Source: Paracoccaceae bacterium (GTDB taxonomy: Bacteria > Pseudomonadota > Alphaproteobacteria > Rhodobacterales > Rhodobacteraceae). From it: a stretch of DNA of 46,538 nucleotides. The stretch lies in contig SKYA01000011.1 of the NCBI GenBank assembly GCA_007128135.1, positions 1 to 46,538 on the forward strand. The letters run 5' to 3'. Positions 4,107 to 11,514 of this stretch are shown one piece after another. Position numbers and translations under genes: made by a program. The notes under the pieces are model-generated. The model saw only the letters and a list, made by a program, of their open reading frames with translations. It did not search any database and was not told the DNA's origin. Position 1 is the first letter of the stretch. Each line of letters begins with the position of its first letter.

Positions 4107-6197
4107 TTACCTTTCCGTCAGTTTCAGCTCGATCCGTCGGTTGCGCGAACGGGCCTCGGCCGTGTTGCGCGGGTCCACCGGCCTGTACTCGCCGAAACCT
4201 GCCGCGGAAAGCCGGAAAGCCGGAAAGCCCCGCTCCTCGGTCAGGTAGCGCACCACCGAGAGCGCGCGGGCCTGCGAGAGCGCCCAGTTATCCTCGAAAC
4301 GCCCGCCCGGCGCGATGGGCAGATTGTCGGTATGCCCCTCGACCTGCAGGATCCAGTCGATCTCGGGCGGGATGCGGTCGGCGACCTCGTTCAGGATCGC
4401 GACCACATTGCCGATCTGCGCGCGCCCCTCGGGGGCCAGATCGGCCGCGCCAAGCTCGAAAAGCACCTCGGAGGAAAACACGAAACGGTCGCCCACGATC
4501 TCGACGCCCTGGCGCCCTTCCAGCACCTGCCGCAACTGCCCGAAGAACTCGGACCGGAACTGCTCCAGCCGCTCGCGCTCGGCGGCTTCCAGATCGGCGC
4601 GGGCACGTTGTTCGACTGCCAGCTGTGCCAGCGCGATGTTCAGATCCGCGCCAAGGCTCTCGATCTGGACCTGCGCCGCCTGTTCACGCGCACGGATTTC
4701 GCCCAGAAGCTCCTGCAAGCCCCCGACCTGGCCGCGCAGGGCCGCAACCTGCTGGTTCAGCAATTCCAGCGCGCGCTGGTCTTCCAGCGCCTGTGCATCA
4801 GCCTCGGCAAGGCTCTGCTCGGCCACCGCGCGCAGGGCCGCAAGCCGCTCGCGTTCCGAAATCTCGCGCTCGAGCAATTCCTGAATGCCGGCCTGTTCCA
4901 TGCGCGCCGCCGCAAGCAGCGTCAGCGCCTCTTCGGCGCGGCGGCGCTCTTCCTCCAGCGCAAGCGTCATCGCCGTCAATTCGGTATCGGCCCCTTCAAG
5001 CCTTGCGCGCAACGCTTCGGCAGCGGCAGCATCGGCCAGACGCCGGCGTTCCTCTTCGCTCAGCGCGGCCTCGGCATCGGCGAGCCGGGCGCGCAAGGCT
5101 TCGGCGGCGGCGCGCTCGGCCAACGCCTGCGCCTCGGCCGCATCAAGGGCGGTGTCCTGCCCGGCAAAGCGGGCGCGCAACTCCTCCAGCCTTGCCAGCG
5201 CCTCCAGACGCGCGGCCTCCTCGGCGTCAAAACGGCTCTGCGCCTCCTCGAGATCGGCGCGCAGGCTCTCGGCGCGCGCGATAGCGGCAAGCCGTGCGGC
5301 CTCTTCCAGTGACAGACGTTCTTGCGCTGCCTGAAGATCGGCGCGCAGGCTCTCGGCAATGGCGAGCGCCGCGGACTGGGCCTGCTCGGCATCAAGCGCG
5401 CCGGCAAGCGCAGCATCGCGTTCATCTTCCAGCTGCGACAAGGATGCAAGCGCCGCCAGAAGCTGCGCCTCCATCCCCGCCTGCTCTTGCTGGACATTTG
5501 CAAGTGCTGCCTCGGAGCTTTCCAGCTGGGCGGCAAGTTGCGCGAGCGAGGCCTCCTGCGCCGCGGCATCGGCCCGGGCCTGCGCCAGCGCCGCTTCCAC
5601 GGCCTCGGCCCGCGCTGCGGCCAGTCGCGCGGCCTCCGCCTCGGCATCCAGTTCATCGCGCAACGAGGCCAGCGCTAGTTGCAGCGCTTCCTGTTCCGAC
5701 AGCAGCACCGCCTGCGCGGCCTCGAGATCGGCCAGATCGGCGCCGAGTTCCTCGCCCCTTGCAAGGGCCGCATCGCGTGCCCCGATCAGGGCCGCAACCT
5801 GCGCCTCGAAATCGGTGATCTGTGACTGTGCGGCGGCCAGTGCGCCCTCGCGCTCGTCAAGTTCGCGGGTGAGCGATGTGATCTGCGCCAGTTGCGCGGC
5901 GGCCAGCGCGCGGGCCTGATCGAGATCGCCCTCCAGTGCGCCAACCTGCCCTTCCAGCGCGCTGACGCGCGCACGCGACAGGCCAAGTGCGCTGGCAAGC
6001 GAGGCCACTTCGGCGGCCAGCCCCTCAAGCTGGGTGTCCTGCGCGCTGATCGTGTCGCGCAACACGAATTGTACGATCATGAAGATCGACAGCACGAACA
6101 TCAACACCAGCAGCAGCGCGGTCATCGCGTCGACGAAACCGGGCCAGATGGCCTGACTGACATCGCGCCGTTGCCCGGATCTGCGCGCGAGCGCCAT
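4107..6197 (-). CDS. MotB-like protein with giant periplasmic coiled coil and C-terminal OmpA domain
   Basis: The product has 696 residues. Residues 18-48 form a single membrane helix beginning WPGFVDAMTALLLVLMF; Asp23 corresponds to the proton-carrying Asp of MotB. Residues about 50-555 are almost entirely Ala/Glu/Arg/Leu-rich heptads, including five exact-length 28-residue repeats (281-420). Residues 565-696 are an OmpA/MotB peptidoglycan-binding domain with VEGHTDN, NWALSQARA and a terminal SRNRRIELKL. It should sit in the inner membrane and bind peptidoglycan. The start lies three bases after the stop of the MotA-like gene, so the two are translationally coupled. Normal MotB is near 300 residues, so the coil is the unusual part. 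A role in envelope or cell-division mechanics is inference; annotation as generic peptidoglycan-binding protein would be the cautious alternative. Confidence 0.88.
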   Translation of the reverse strand: MALARRSGQRRDVSQAIWPGFVDAMTALLLVLMFVLSIFMIVQFVLRDTISAQDTQLEGLAAEVASLASALGLSRARVSALEGQVGALEGDLDQARALAAAQLAQITSLTRELDEREGALAAAQSQITDFEAQVAALIGARDAALARGEELGADLADLEAAQAVLLSEQEALQLALASLRDELDAEAEAARLAAARAEAVEAALAQARADAAAQEASLAQLAAQLESSEAALANVQQEQAGMEAQLLAALASLSQLEDERDAALAGALDAEQAQSAALAIAESLRADLQAAQERLSLEEAARLAAIARAESLRADLEEAQSRFDAEEAARLEALARLEELRARFAGQDTALDAAEAQALAERAAAEALRARLADAEAALSEEERRRLADAAAAEALRARLEGADTELTAMTLALEEERRRAEEALTLLAAARMEQAGIQELLEREISERERLAALRAVAEQSLAEADAQALEDQRALELLNQQVAALRGQVGGLQELLGEIRAREQAAQVQIESLGADLNIALAQLAVEQRARADLEAAERERLEQFRSEFFGQLRQVLEGRQGVEIVGDRFVFSSEVLFELGAADLAPEGRAQIGNVVAILNEVADRIPPEIDWILQVEGHTDNLPIAPGGRFEDNWALSQARALSVVRYLTEERGFPAFRLSAAGFGEYRPVDPRNTAEARSRNRRIELKLTER
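4938..5357 (-). repeat. Five tandem 84-bp repeats encoding 28-residue (four-heptad) coiled-coil units
   Basis: Residues 281-308, 309-336, 337-364, 365-392 and 393-420 of the MotB-like protein align end to end without gaps. Four begin AE(S/A)LRA(D/R)L and the third begins LEELRARF. A weaker sixth unit may precede them at 253-280. Period 28 keeps heptad register. Confidence 0.85.
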
Positions 6198-6200
6198 GGC

Positions 6201-7400
6201 CTAGCCCTCGTCCCGGCGCGCGCTGAACCCGGCGCGCGACAATTGCCGCACGGCTTGTGTAAGGCGTTCCAGATCGGCGCGCAGATCGGTGGTGGTCTCG
6301 ATCCGCCCGGCAGAAAGCTCTTCGGCGATACGCAACAGCTGCGCATCCATGTTGCGCAGGCGCAGACGCATCTCTGCCTGACCGAAGGGGCCACCCTCTT
6401 CCGCATGGACGCGGTAATGATGCAGCAGTTCCTCCTGCCCGCTGGCAATGCGCTCAAGCGCAGGTGTCAGCCCGGCCGGAGCCTCGGCACCCTGATGTCC
6501 CGCCGCCAGCCGGTCGATCGCCTCGACCAGATAGCCCAGCGCCTGGTCAAGCTGCGCGCGCTCGTGGTCGGCTTGCACCTGCTGGCGGTGCAGCGCCTCC
6601 ATCTGCTCGGCCATGGCATCAAGCACCTGCACCATCGCGCCCATCTCGGTGCCGGGTTCCAGATCGCCTGCGACGCCGAGCCGTGTGATGGAACTCATCC
6701 ATTCCTCTAGCTGGCGGTAAAAGCGGTTCTGGCCGTGGCCTGCAAACAACTCCAGCATCCCCACCACCAGCGACCCTGCCAGCCCCAGCAGCGACGACGA
6801 AAACGCCGTCCCCATGCCGCCAAGCTGCGCTTCCAGCCCGGTCATCAGGTTCTCGAAAACCTGGATCCCGGTCTGGTTGTCCTCGGGTGCGAGCGAGCGG
6901 ATCGTGTCCACAACGGCAGGAACCGTGGTCGCCAGCCCATAGAATGTGCCCAGCAGGCCAAGAAAGATCAGCAGGCTGATGATGTAGCGCGTGATGTCGC
7001 GCAACTCGTCCAGACGTGTCGCGACCGAGTCGAGAATGGACGAGGCCGAGGAGGAGGAAATCTTCGATCCGCGCCCGCGCCCGCGCAGCAGCGCGGCCAG
7101 CGGCATCAGCAGCGAGGGCGGAATGGTCGCCTCGTGGCCGGGCGTGTCGGCAGCAAACCCCTCGATCCAGATGATCGAGCGGTTGAGCTGGATCACCTGC
7201 CAGAAGGTTGCCAGCACACCCACCACGAAGACGAGAAAGATCACGCCATTGAGCCAGATATTCGCCAGGAAGATCCCCGCCACGCGCGGCAACGCGAAAT
7301 AGGTGCCGACACTGACCAGAACGATGACGACAAGCATCATGACGATCTGTCGCACCGGCCGGGAAAACTGCGTCTGGGCCCCAAACTGGGATCTTGCCAT
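6201..7400 (-). CDS. MotA/TolQ/ExbB-like proton-channel subunit
   Basis: The 399-residue inner-membrane protein pairs with the MotB-like protein immediately downstream (three-base gap). Two hydrophobic segments lie near residues 18-37 and 43-72. Two more contain LLIFLGLLGTFYGLATTV (about 140-158) and FSSSLLGLAGSLVVGMLE (about 200-217), the latter pair matching the conserved MotA/TolQ channel helices. The C-terminal third (about 230-399) is helical and charged, predicted cytoplasmic, with coiled-coil character. Related stator-type complexes couple proton flow to rotation or force. I chose ATG 7400 over GTG 7433 because a good promoter has its -10 box overlapping the GTG. TolQ- or ExbB-type naming is possible, but the OmpA-domain partner makes MotA-like the better description. 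Confidence 0.85.
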   Translation of the reverse strand: MARSQFGAQTQFSRPVRQIVMMLVVIVLVSVGTYFALPRVAGIFLANIWLNGVIFLVFVVGVLATFWQVIQLNRSIIWIEGFAADTPGHEATIPPSLLMPLAALLRGRGRGSKISSSSASSILDSVATRLDELRDITRYIISLLIFLGLLGTFYGLATTVPAVVDTIRSLAPEDNQTGIQVFENLMTGLEAQLGGMGTAFSSSLLGLAGSLVVGMLELFAGHGQNRFYRQLEEWMSSITRLGVAGDLEPGTEMGAMVQVLDAMAEQMEALHRQQVQADHERAQLDQALGYLVEAIDRLAAGHQGAEAPAGLTPALERIASGQEELLHHYRVHAEEGGPFGQAEMRLRLRNMDAQLLRIAEELSAGRIETTTDLRADLERLTQAVRQLSRAGFSARRDEG

Positions 7401-7553: not shown

Positions 7554-7961
7554 TCAGCCCTGTTGCGGCGCAACGGGGGTCTGCGTTTCACGTTTGCGGC
7601 GGTTCTCGTCCATGAACTGGTCGAACTCGGCCTTGTCCTTGGCCTCGCGCAGCCGCTCCAGAAAGGCATCGAAGGCGGCCTGCTCGTCTTCCAGGCGGCG
7701 CAGCATGTCGGCCTTGTAGGCGTCGAAGGCACTGTTGCCGGAGGAGCGGGTGGCGATCCCCCGGTGCGAGGCTGCCCCGCGGCAGGATTTTCCGAACATT
7801 TTCTTCCCCCAGATCATGTATGCCAGAACTGCCAGCCCGACGGGCCAGAACAGGATGAAGCCGAGGACCATCGCCGCGATCCATCCGCCCTTGCCGAACC
7901 CGTCGAGCCAGGCTTCTGCCCGCTGCGGCCAGGTGGCGCTTGAAGTTGCTGTCGTCATCAT
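7554..7961 (-). CDS. DUF2852 domain-containing membrane protein
   Basis: The 135-residue protein has one predicted membrane segment or helical hairpin at about residues 27-50 (GWIAAMVLGFILFWPVGLAV), a short basic linker (KKMFGK), and an amphipathic, charged C-terminal helix (about 75-125, DAYKADMLRRLEDEQAAFDAFLERL). This architecture is that of DUF2852, a family I know from alphaproteobacteria with no assigned function. Two adjacent ATGs exist. The second (7958) has the better spacing from AGGAG (seven bases), so the protein may be 134 residues. It is on the same strand as the MotA/MotB-like pair, but a terminator and a separate promoter lie between them. Confidence 0.8.
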   Translation of the reverse strand: MMTTATSSATWPQRAEAWLDGFGKGGWIAAMVLGFILFWPVGLAVLAYMIWGKKMFGKSCRGAASHRGIATRSSGNSAFDAYKADMLRRLEDEQAAFDAFLERLREAKDKAEFDQFMDENRRKRETQTPVAPQQG

Positions 7962-9894: not shown

Positions 9895-10710
9895 TCAGGG
9901 TTTCAGGCGGTAGCCGGAGCGGAACCAGTGCCAGCACACTCCCGAGACCAGCAGGCAGCTGCTCGCCACGACGACAAGCCCCGTCAGCGGCGACGAGTCA
10001 GATGCCCCGATCATCCCGTAGCGCGCCCCGTCAATGAGGTAGAACACCGGGTTGAGCCGGCTCAGCGTCTCGAGCAGGGGTGGCAGGGTCGAGATCGAGT
10101 AGAAGGTGCCCGACAGGAATGACAGCGGCACCACGATGAAATTGGTGATCGCCGCAATCTGGTCGAACTTGTTCGAGATGATGCCGGCAGCAATCCCCAG
10201 CGCGCCCAGCAGCGCGGCCCCGAGCGTCAGGAATGCCAGCAGCCAGATCGGATGCGCCACCCCCTGCCCCAGCAGCAGCACCATGGCCGAGATGATCACC
10301 GTGCCCACCACCAGCCCGCGTATGAGACCCCCCGCCAGATAGCCCAGCACCAGTTCCAGCGCCGAAAGCGGCGGCATCAGCGTATCAACGATATTTCCCT
10401 GCACCTTCGAGATCACGATGGAGGAGGATGTATTCGCAAAGCTGTTCTGGATCACGGTCATCATCAGGATGCCCGGTGCCAGAAACGCCAGGAACGGCAC
10501 GCCCAGGACCTCGCCCCGTGTCGGTCCGATAGCAAGCGAGAAAACGGCCAGAAACAGCCCTGCCGTGACCAGGGGGGCCAGCAGGGTCTGTGTCCAGACG
10601 ACCAGAAAGCGGCGGATTTCACGATCGGCCAGCGCGGCAAGGCCCAGCCAGTTCACCCGCCCGAAACGCCGCGCTCCCATGCCGAATTTCGGGAGTCTGC
10701 TTTCTGTCAT
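9895..10710 (-). CDS. ABC-2 type transporter permease
   Basis: The 271-residue inner-membrane protein has a cytoplasmic N-terminus and about six hydrophobic segments: residues 35-60, 70-90, 115-140, 145-170, 180-205 and 240-260. It belongs to the ABC-2 permease group that includes NodJ, CcmB-like and YadH proteins; LSFLSGTFYSISTLPP in the fifth loop is characteristic. Such permeases export polysaccharides, lipids or drugs with an ATPase. No ATPase gene lies beside it: downstream is the cytochrome, and upstream is gcrA on the other strand. The substrate and partner are therefore unknown. The start at 10710 opens MTESRLPKFGMGARRF; a downstream ATG at about 10680 would shorten the N-terminus by ten residues. 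Confidence 0.85.
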   Translation of the reverse strand: MTESRLPKFGMGARRFGRVNWLGLAALADREIRRFLVVWTQTLLAPLVTAGLFLAVFSLAIGPTRGEVLGVPFLAFLAPGILMMTVIQNSFANTSSSIVISKVQGNIVDTLMPPLSALELVLGYLAGGLIRGLVVGTVIISAMVLLLGQGVAHPIWLLAFLTLGAALLGALGIAAGIISNKFDQIAAITNFIVVPLSFLSGTFYSISTLPPLLETLSRLNPVFYLIDGARYGMIGASDSSPLTGLVVVASSCLLVSGVCWHWFRSGYRLKP

Positions 10711-10780
10711 GACATCTGTCCTCGCTGGCGCAATCCGGGCGCGCTGTTGCCGACGGCGCGCAAAGCGGATGCGCGCCCCG

Positions 10781-10809
10781 TTGTCTTTCTGTCCCGGTCG
10801 ATGTATTTC
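10781..10809 (+). promoter_or_regulatory. Sigma-70-type promoter upstream of gcrA
   Basis: TTGTCT (10781-10786), a 17-base spacer and TATTTC (10804-10809) predict a start near 10816 and a leader of about 65 bases to the gcrA ATG. Confidence 0.5.
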
Positions 10810-10881
10810 AACGCTTGTCCCACAACAATGGGGGTCCGCGAAAAGCGCGTGTCAAGCCCCCGATACCTGCCGGAGAACATG

Positions 10882-11514
10882 ATGTCCTGGACCGACGAGC
10901 GCGTCGAATTGCTCAAGAAGTTGTGGAATGAGGGGCATTCGGCCTCGCAGATCGCAAAGGAACTGGGCGGGGTAACACGCAACGCCGTCATCGGCAAGGT
11001 GCATCGCCTGGGCCTGTCGAACCGCAACGGCCCCGAGCCCGAGCCTGCACCCGCGGCCGCGGCAAAGCCAGAGCCAGCACCCGCGCCGTCGCGCCCGGCA
11101 TCCCCGGTCGTCGATCTGGCGCAGGCCAAGGCCGAGCGCGCGGCCGGCCGCCCCCAGCCCGAAGCGGCGCCCCAAGCGGCGCCGGAACCCGAGCAGCACA
11201 ACGAACCCGAGTCCGAAACGCCCGCCTATAACCCCAGGCCGATCATTCCGGCCGGTCAGCCGCTGCCGCCACAACCCTCGATGAACGAGATCGACCCCGA
11301 GGCGCTGGCCACGGTGCGCGAGGTCGAGAAGACCGCGCGCAGGCTCTCGCTGCTGGAACTGACCGAAAGGACCTGCAAATGGCCCATCGGCGACCCGGCG
11401 ACCGAGGAATTCTGGTTTTGTGGACTGCCGGTCAAACCCGGCAAGCCCTATTGCGAGGCGCATGTCGCCGTGGCCTTCCAGCCCATGAGCACGCGACGCG
11501 ACCGCAGGCGCTGA
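10882..11514 (+). CDS. gcrA: GcrA cell-cycle regulator
   Basis: The 210-residue protein begins MSWTDERVELLKKLW, the invariant GcrA N-terminus, followed by a helix-turn-helix (SASQIAKELG, TRNAVIGKVHRLGLS; residues 20-45). Residues about 48-135 are a Pro/Ala/Glu-rich linker. The C-terminal domain (about 150-210) carries RTCKWPIGDP, FWFCGLP and PYCEAH with conserved cysteines; in Caulobacter this domain binds sigma-70 region 2. GcrA activates promoters that contain methylated GANTC sites and partners with the CcrM methylase. I chose the second of two adjacent ATGs because GGAG lies six bases upstream and the family starts MSW. The linker is longer than in Caulobacter as I remember it. Confidence 0.96.
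   Translation: MSWTDERVELLKKLWNEGHSASQIAKELGGVTRNAVIGKVHRLGLSNRNGPEPEPAPAAAAKPEPAPAPSRPASPVVDLAQAKAERAAGRPQPEAAPQAAPEPEQHNEPESETPAYNPRPIIPAGQPLPPQPSMNEIDPEALATVREVEKTARRLSLLELTERTCKWPIGDPATEEFWFCGLPVKPGKPYCEAHVAVAFQPMSTRRDRRR

Follow-up and report, generated by a model that had tools for sequence, protein, structure and literature searches.

A MotA/TolQ-type gene pair of Alphaproteobacteria with a coiled coil whose length varies mostly in heptad steps

Introduction

The closest described relatives of the system reported here are the flagellar stator MotAB, the TolQR and ExbBD complexes and the ZorA/ZorB motor of Zorya phage defence. In a 2025 survey of stator relatives, the non-flagellar B subunits are described as lacking both an OmpA-type domain and the extended plug and linker (PMC12505986). 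The pair described here, subunits A and B, is encoded on the minus strand of a 46,538-nucleotide stretch of DNA from a Paracoccaceae bacterium (contig SKYA01000011.1), the whole of which is called the window. Its B family, like ZorB, carries an OmpA-type domain and is a widespread exception to the survey's statement.

What distinguishes B is a long coiled coil. Natural linkers of PadC phytochrome cyclases and of light-regulated (LOV) histidine kinases differ in length by multiples of seven residues (PMC9587094, PMC6798134), and steps of +3 and +4 in coiled coils are called stammer and stutter (PMC6798134). In the synaptonemal complex, coil length is conserved and insertions and deletions are depleted within the coils (PMC8598163). 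No paper on the A/B pair was found among the literature matches listed, which covered few subscription papers and no bioRxiv preprints. PRK09039, the database name of the B family, occurred in the available text of that literature only in a phage-genome listing and in a blue-light-sensor table concerned with another protein.

Results

Coil length in B varies up to sevenfold and mostly by heptads

A begins with an ATG at 7400 and ends with a stop codon at 6201-6203. After 3 bp B follows, from an ATG at 6197 to 4107 (Table 1); the two frames are thus tightly spaced, and their translational coupling, which the first-pass annotation stated, is a possibility. The 696-residue B protein consists of an Arg-rich N-terminus, a helix (WPGFVDAMTALLL...) carrying Asp23, 501 proline-free residues and an OmpA domain, whereas A has 399 residues. 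The first-pass annotation of this DNA had placed about 500 residues of coiled coil between the membrane helix and the OmpA domain, and this description was borne out. A Fourier analysis of Leu, Ile, Val, Met and Phe positions gave a peak at 3.50 residues with a power of 40.7 over the 501 residues, in a single phase.

Homologous loci were collected as a class-wide set and as a set of the nearest named relatives, each of 80 loci. Coil length was expressed as the distance from the Asp23 equivalent to the Ser of an SxFFG module that precedes the OmpA domain. This distance is 526 residues in the window and ranges from 138 to 977 residues in 147 homologues, an up to sevenfold variation. The homologues comprise 74 class-wide loci, each from its own genome (median 239; L064 is from the window's family), and 73 named loci (median 464). 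With the window they form a set of 148; two further complete B proteins, with WAGFVDAL instead of WPGFVDAL, were excluded from the length counts only. When divided by seven, 92 of the 147 distances leave a remainder of 1, 21 leave 4, 21 leave 5 and 13 leave another remainder. The same distances taken modulo 5, 6 and 8, which served as a control, were flat (p = 0.70, 0.30 and 0.21, respectively).

Three further counts limit the effect of relatedness. Of the 98 distinct lengths, 49 are at 1 mod 7, 18 at 4 and 19 at 5. Among disjoint nearest pairs 42 differ in length, 21 of them by an exact multiple of seven and 13 more by 3 or 4 mod 7 (p = 4.5e-8 against 1 in 7). Within the window's genus, 26 of 29 loci, window included, and 12 of 14 distinct lengths are at 1 mod 7, over a range of 372-533 residues. 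This set held 30 loci, of which L029 gave no distance; eight of the 29 share their coil start with named loci and are the same genes, and one is the window. Without the window and the eight shared loci, which make this set partly dependent on the named one, the count is 18 of 20. In Sinorhizobium meliloti, whose short-coil pair measures 368 and 342 aa, the distance is 176, likewise 1 mod 7, and the four relatives fetched from outside the class have distances of 197, 222, 190 and 190, i.e. 1, 5, 1 and 1 mod 7.

DNA repeats were considered as a source of the sevens and rejected. Tandem Repeats Finder reported just two tiny overlapping arrays, at 4201-4229 and thus outside the coil; older repeat-driven growth may have occurred. 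A corresponding heptad rule was not clear in the A tail, where the motif used for measuring was present in 54 of 161 sequences. The lengths of A tail and B coil correlate at 0.48 when all loci are taken together, at 0.32 among class-wide loci and at 0.25 among named loci; these values are uncontrolled for kinship and are not used as support.

A continuous rod is the better reading of the coil

At the coiled-coil rise of 0.1485 nm per residue, 501 residues would extend to 74.4 nm if straight, and the range across homologues would be about 20 to 145 nm. The periplasm is narrower than 74 nm, and the first-pass annotation had therefore required the coil to bend or to fold back on itself. Each B chain would then reverse once or more, and the result would be a short, thick bundle of roughly the height of the periplasm. 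The AlphaFold monomer of B (mean pLDDT 69.4, pTM 0.29) agrees with such reversals in so far as its helices, 22-266, 270-342, 355-510 and 520-559, followed by the OmpA fold, are separated by three breaks, near which the heptad amplitude dips. However, the phase of the window coil remains within some 80 degrees all the way between the Asp and the OmpA module, and the register runs through all three breaks. The hydrophobic peak lies at a period of 3.49-3.51 in 139 of 148 coils, and 144 of the 148 are free of proline. Moreover, a symmetric hairpin should grow by 14 residues, yet the 93 in-register lengths are divided between 1 mod 14 (47) and 8 mod 14 (46), so that odd numbers of heptads are as frequent as even ones, and lengths from 138 to 977 converge on no fixed height.

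Core composition was examined in the same 93 sequences, pooled. Ile and Val together make up 22.7% of residues at position a and 3.8% at position d, whereas Leu is equally frequent at both (36.8% and 37.8%). As known from work on GCN4, a core with beta-branched residues in position a and Leu in position d marks a parallel dimer. Given the continuous register, the enrichment of Ile and Val at a and the equal numbers of odd and even heptads, a single continuous parallel two-stranded rod appears to be the better reading, and we consider a folded-back bundle improbable. The requirement that the coil bend or fold back was thus dropped: an oblique rod fits into the periplasm unfolded, and as 74 nm exceeds the periplasm's width, the rod most likely follows the wall at a slant. 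Hinges are possible at the three weak points (267-269, 343-354 and 511-519).

B retains a proton-site Asp and a peptidoglycan-binding domain

The set of complete B proteins (77 class-wide and 74 from the named search, minus L195, which is cut at a contig end) numbers 150, and the Asp23 equivalent is present in every one. Loss of this residue in orthologues, which the first-pass annotation had named as evidence that would speak against a motor, was therefore not seen. Its assignment of an OmpA domain also holds (Table 1), and within this domain Asp624 and Arg644 are invariant among 148 aligned sequences; we take them to be the equivalents of the Asp and Arg through which OmpA domains contact peptidoglycan. 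Because the Arg-rich N-terminus is followed by a membrane helix, the coil and the OmpA domain should be periplasmic.

B scores 657.3 bits on the NCBIfam model PRK09039.1-1 (NF006542), whose curated cut-off is 388, and matches models -2 to -5 of the same series below their cut-offs. The latter are 342-350 positions long and so represent short-coil forms. The B family is thus already named in NCBIfam, under a name that carries no mechanism.

The predicted fold of A is nearest to TolQ and ExbB

A scores 13.7 bits on the Pfam MotA_ExbB model, below its cut-off of 22.9, whereas the S. meliloti orthologue lies above it with 23.9 bits. The best PADLOC profile for A is ZorA1 (E 4.2e-15), and the two NCBIfam models matched at E 0.1 or better do not include tolQ (TIGR02796). 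In the pore motif GLLGTF(W/Y/F)GL, eight of nine positions (G148, L149, L150, G151, T152, F153, G155 and L156) are invariant in 81 of 81 sequences; Thr152 is presumably the counterpart of the pore Thr of TolQ and ExbB.

A structural model was built from the window sequence and 60 sequences of named loci (mean pLDDT 77.9). It contains long helices up to residue 244, followed by a less certain helical tail at 252-390 (helices 252-301, 311-335, 338-363 and 369-390, block pLDDT 41-72), so that about 155 residues follow the last membrane helix. In a Foldseek search with this model, rows 1-48 were all TolQ, ExbB or ZorA entries (E 0.009-0.2). A second aligner gave Z scores of 11.7 for TolQ (188 residues aligned, rmsd 3.8), 11.3 for ExbB (195, 4.3), 10.0 for ZorA (183, 3.8) and 9.3 for MotA (192, 4.0). 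The TolQ/ExbB/MotA superfamily as a whole ranged from 11.7 to 7.7, and unrelated helical proteins from 8.7 down. These comparisons suggest that the fold is nearest to TolQ and ExbB, which are tied, with ZorA and MotA lower and tied with each other. The ZorA-profile match and the pore motif place A in the same superfamily as the fold does. The MotA-like channel subunit of the first-pass annotation therefore stands, refined to a TolQ/ExbB-like one. In flagellar MotA the loop between membrane helices two and three contains the rotor-contact domain. Between the long helices 16-83 and 116-169 the model of A has one short helix, 96-107, and the cytoplasmic loop is, we presume, shorter than that of MotA.

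The length of the A tail varies little among relatives (medians 160 and 166.5). Two relatives from outside the class, L256 and L257, have A frames of 252 and 268 residues that are almost tailless, and their B proteins retain the Asp, the coil (190 residues to the SxFFG module) and the OmpA domain. The tail would accordingly seem to be expendable in these organisms.

The pair is found throughout the class and occurs without FliG

A was matched in 97 of 142 genomes of the class Alphaproteobacteria, about two thirds, and in 101 of 299 genomes drawn from the phylum, a count that includes weak matches, some of them to ZorA-sized frames. Strong matches outside the class were obtained in five genomes (G237, G305, G339, G320 and G445), four of which were fetched, and all four contain the same pair (L254-L257). 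Wide loci were taken from 80 of the 92 positive genomes considered further, the other 12 being left aside. In 77 of the resulting 81 class-wide loci (the window and these 80), B immediately follows A on the downstream side; of the other four, L113 and L136 end soon after A, and L125 and L139 are unexplained. The same arrangement holds in 74 of the 80 nearest named loci, which are mostly from Rhodobacteraceae (e.g. Roseinatronobacter, Natronohydrobacter and Roseibaca), the remaining six reaching a contig end within 1.9 kb. The first-pass annotation had suggested looking for the pair across Rhodobacteraceae; it does occur there, but a local oddity it is not, as the family is class-wide.

A single A match was found in 95 of the 97 positive genomes. 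Two genomes seem to contain a second B-like gene (a 1276-residue frame) or a second A-like gene (G050:C23:684-1973 and G158:C5:36528-37232). In family f13 (e.g. G047, G254 and G294) nine listed genomes are without an A match, although G432 has one, which points to a loss; G047 has FliG and TolQ. MreB matches were obtained in 142 of 142 genomes, several of them weak and, by eye, Hsp70-like. Five A-positive genomes (G078, G089, G105, G109 and G134, two of them incomplete) seem to be without MreB, which is uninformative on growth mode.

An accessory flagellar stator would account for the distant resemblance of the pair to MotA and MotB. The distribution of FliG argues against it: 56 genomes have both FliG and A, 37 have A only, 30 have FliG only and 19 have neither (p = 1, odds ratio 0.96), so that FliG is absent from 37 of 93 A-positive genomes. 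These counts, and those for tolQ below, use the 92 positive genomes and the window's own; the four weak A matches of the 97 (E 8e-11 or worse) are not counted. The window's genome also has a separate gene of flagellar MotA type (L003), next to separate tolQR- and exbBD-type genes, all labelled by eye. We regard a flagellar function as extremely improbable.

A role in Zorya-like phage defence, in which the motor would sense phage damage to the envelope and turn its cytoplasmic tail on a partner nuclease, has several points in its favour. PADLOC ranked ZorA1 first for A and ZorB3 first for B (E 8.9e-26), the A tail is expected to be cytoplasmic, and the shortest ZorA models (413 and 420 positions) hardly exceed A. 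However, the seven matched ZorB models span 215-293 positions compared with 696 residues in B. The distance from the Asp to the OmpA domain is 68 residues in nine ZorAB-type loci and 554 in the window; the five of these loci that were scanned are ZorA3/ZorB3 (type III), so this comparison covers one Zorya type. The genes zorC, zorD or zorE adjoin zorAB in Zorya, whereas the seven proteins neighbouring the window pair gave zero PADLOC matches at E 0.01 and include no zorC, zorD or zorE type neighbour. A single match in nearly every positive genome and stable neighbourhoods look like housekeeping, no match was found in 50,697 phage records, and the two in 72,556 plasmid records are both on multi-megabase replicons. 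The relatives that have hardly any A tail also argue against a tail that acts on a partner. Taken together, these data make a Zorya-like role very unlikely.

Gene neighbourhoods point toward the cell envelope

A and the best tolQ are on one contig in 41 genomes (six of the 92 have no listed tolQ row). They lie within 35 kb of each other in 35 of these genomes, in 30 of which tolQ is upstream on the opposite strand. When A is on a contig above 300 kb, tolQ is within 35 kb in 14 of 19 cases. The 35 class genomes belong to many families; the distance between A/B and tolQ is 8-31 kb in them, and the gene order is stereotyped and mostly divergent.

In S. meliloti Ak57 the order is tolQ, zapA, B, A, a phosphatase gene and a secreted Sel1-repeat gene, followed later by a secreted DUF1036 gene and an M15 peptidase (DUF882) gene, and tolQ is about 39 kb from A. 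RgsF (SMc03995) is a periplasmic protein with Sel1 repeats, RgsB (SMc04006) is periplasmic and RgsC (SMc04010) has an N-terminal M15 domain (PMC7327166). With one unlisted tag counted and an insertion element left out, the DUF1036 gene lies 11 genes and the M15 gene 15 genes from the Sel1 gene, which matches the differences between the tags exactly. The Sel1 protein has four Sel1 stretches by Pfam compared with six in PMC7327166. Judged by domains and gene counting, not by tags, the three genes are very probably rgsF, rgsB and rgsC, and on this assignment A and B of S. meliloti would be SMc03993 and SMc03992. Thus tolQR, zapA, the A/B pair and the probable rgsF, rgsB and rgsC occur in about 55 kb of CP090106.1 (about 3046000-3101000). 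Knockouts failed for all of the new rgs genes, RgsF, RgsB and RgsC form polar and septal foci, and pull-downs with RgsA and RgsB were enriched in TolQ and TolR (PMC7327166).

In 52 of the 80 class-wide loci (L064-L143), the strand that encodes A also has, further upstream or, in 51 cases, directly next to it, a gene for a secreted protein rich in Pro and Ala that ends in an OmpA-type domain (e.g. L079:6661-7470(-)). A profile finds such a protein in 62 of the 80 wherever it is placed in the locus. It is a possible third component. As a universal partner it was rejected: it was not found in any of the 80 named loci, although some of these break off close to A, and the best OmpA-level match in the window's genome is weak (E 2.3e-8). 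Coil length is independent of this gene, with medians of 232 in its presence (n = 50) and 278 in its absence (n = 13; p = 0.21). Its Pro-rich linker, taken as a comparison for the heptad rule, gave p = 0.06 with just 14 usable sequences.

Other genes upstream of A are an inositol-monophosphatase-like gene (63 of 80) and an elongation-factor-P-like gene (55 of 80) in the class-wide loci and a ChaC-like gene in 68 of 80 named loci. Neighbour labels were assigned by eye, and the phosphatase is named in the annotated S. meliloti record. The DUF2852 gene next to A in the window recurs in just 6 of the 80 nearest named loci. A frame at about 10880-11514 (+), inside the 10252-11514 open reading frame (ORF) and some 3.5 kb upstream of A, reads MSWTDERVELLKKLW...; by eye, we take it to encode a GcrA-like cell-cycle regulator. 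For RSP_1880, a CenKR target of Rhodobacter sphaeroides (PMC9275681), a link to B was not established.

Table 1. Features of the A/B locus, in positions of the window
Feature	Position	Strand	Basis
A subunit, TolQ/ExbB/ZorA/MotA-type channel protein, 399 aa	6201..7400	-	ORF, PADLOC, structure match
A GLLGTFYGL, residues 148-156, pore-lining helix with invariant Thr152	6933..6959	-	alignment of 81
A MGTAFSSSLLG, residues 196-206, last membrane helix	6783..6815	-	F200, S203 and G206 same in 81/81
A helical tail, residues 245-399, expected cytoplasmic	6204..6668	-	model; near-constant length in relatives
B subunit, 696 aa, NCBIfam PRK09039.1-1 'peptidoglycan -binding protein'	4107..6197	-	657 bits vs 388
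B N-terminus, Arg-rich, expected cytoplasmic	6147..6197	-	sequence and positive-inside rule
B membrane helix, residues 18-45	6063..6146	-	sequence; model helix starts at residue 22
B Asp23, proton-site Asp in W-P-G-F-V-D	6129..6131	-	150/150 complete B proteins
B coiled coil, 501 residues (48-548), proline-free, one heptad register	4554..6056	-	period and phase analysis
B OmpA-type peptidoglycan-binding domain, residues 579-687	4137..4463	-	PF00691 E 2.1e-17; Asp624 and Arg644 invariant in 148 aligned
DUF2852 gene directly upstream of A; neighbour, probably no partner	7554..7961	-	PF11014 E 2.9e-43

Discussion

We propose that A and B assemble into a non-flagellar ion motor of 5:2 composition, in which five A subunits would surround two B helices and protons would pass Asp23. 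The two B chains would form one parallel, continuous coil that leads from the membrane helices to a pair of peptidoglycan-bound OmpA domains, the rod running obliquely along the wall. Length in this coil is almost free, whereas register is held, a combination that fits a torsional link better than a spacer. The coil would thus serve as a tether and torsion shaft, not as a ruler, keeping membrane site and wall anchor in a fixed angular relation. Either A would turn against a tied-down B and move its tails, or B would turn and load the wall through the coil. The neighbourhood and the OmpA domain suggest that the motor acts on the cell wall or envelope in growth or division, probably alongside Tol-Pal. 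Taken as a whole, this account of a 5:2 motor with a parallel shaft in fixed register and a role at the cell wall is in our judgement probable, if by no wide measure.

Several points weigh against this account. No experiment on A or B was found in the literature searched. A heptad rule is expected from any selection that keeps a coil packed, so the rule alone is no sign of torque, and 13 of the 147 lengths are explained neither by whole heptads nor by one stammer or stutter. The fold matches of A are singly weak (Foldseek E 0.009-0.2; Z below 12, with unrelated helical proteins up to 8.7), and the monomer model of B is of modest confidence, with helix breaks at positions where the heptad signal weakens too. 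As for Tol-Pal, the tolQ linkage was not seen in either genome inspected from the window's family: in the window's own, the tolQ above the TIGR02796 cut-off sits on another contig (C177), and in the other (G060) the genes are 563 kb apart. Elsewhere, the linkage may be retained gene order. TolQ is moreover nearly universal in the class, so dependence on Tol-Pal cannot be read from its presence.

A passive or regulatory tether, in which B would anchor the A complex or sense wall tension through the coil while ion flow does little mechanical work, would share the coil properties. Signalling coils need a continuous register too, the seven-stepped linkers of phytochrome cyclases and light-regulated histidine kinases being examples (PMC9587094, PMC6798134), and the A tail can be dispensed with in some relatives. 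These linkers indicate that phase can be what selection sees, although packing alone would also give the rule. The complete conservation of the Asp in B and of the pore motif in A is needless for a passive tether, however, and we think such a tether unlikely. In a bolder extension of the motor account, a proton motor found across the class would drive or wind a rigid shaft that extends for tens to more than 100 nm along the wall and delivers rotation or torsion to distant peptidoglycan. Phase would then be kept while length drifts by heptads, as in torsional transmission or a spring and not in a spacer. We regard this extension as conceivable but doubtful.

If the motor account is correct, a probably ancient 5:2 motor is present in roughly two of every three class genomes sampled, with a database name and a function undescribed in the literature searched. 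Its proximity to tolQ and its probable rgs neighbours suggest a motor of wall growth, at least in pole-growing organisms. The coil is also a rare natural experiment, offering dozens of lengths mostly in one register, by which a requirement for length becomes testable against one for phase.

The closest known systems each share part of this design. TolQR and ExbBD provide the highest-scoring folds for A, but the present B ends in an OmpA domain and not in the small domain of TolR and ExbD, and a TolA/TonB-like third protein was not seen next to the window pair. Flagellar MotAB resembles the pair in the Asp-bearing helix and OmpA domain of B, with a lower fold score for A, and differs in that the present B has its 501-residue coil between the two and that the pair occurs without FliG. 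ZorA/ZorB have an A-subunit fold with a tail, and an Asp and OmpA domain in B, as here. The first-pass annotation had contrasted the pair with Zorya, where the long tail is in the MotA-like subunit. On the B side this contrast is supported by the 554 residues between Asp and OmpA domain, compared with 68 in the nine ZorAB-type loci; on the A side it is one of degree, since A has a helical tail of about 155 residues of its own, ZorA-type frames measuring 698-1117 residues compared with 399 and some ZorA models just 413-420 positions. Synaptonemal complex coils keep their length, whereas the B coils vary. PadC and the LOV histidine kinases share the steps of seven with B, in linkers that are short, whereas the B coil spans 138-977 residues and would be a periplasmic link from a motor to the wall. 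The heptad-stepped free length of the coil is new here, and among 5:2 motors it is the coil that sets this family apart.

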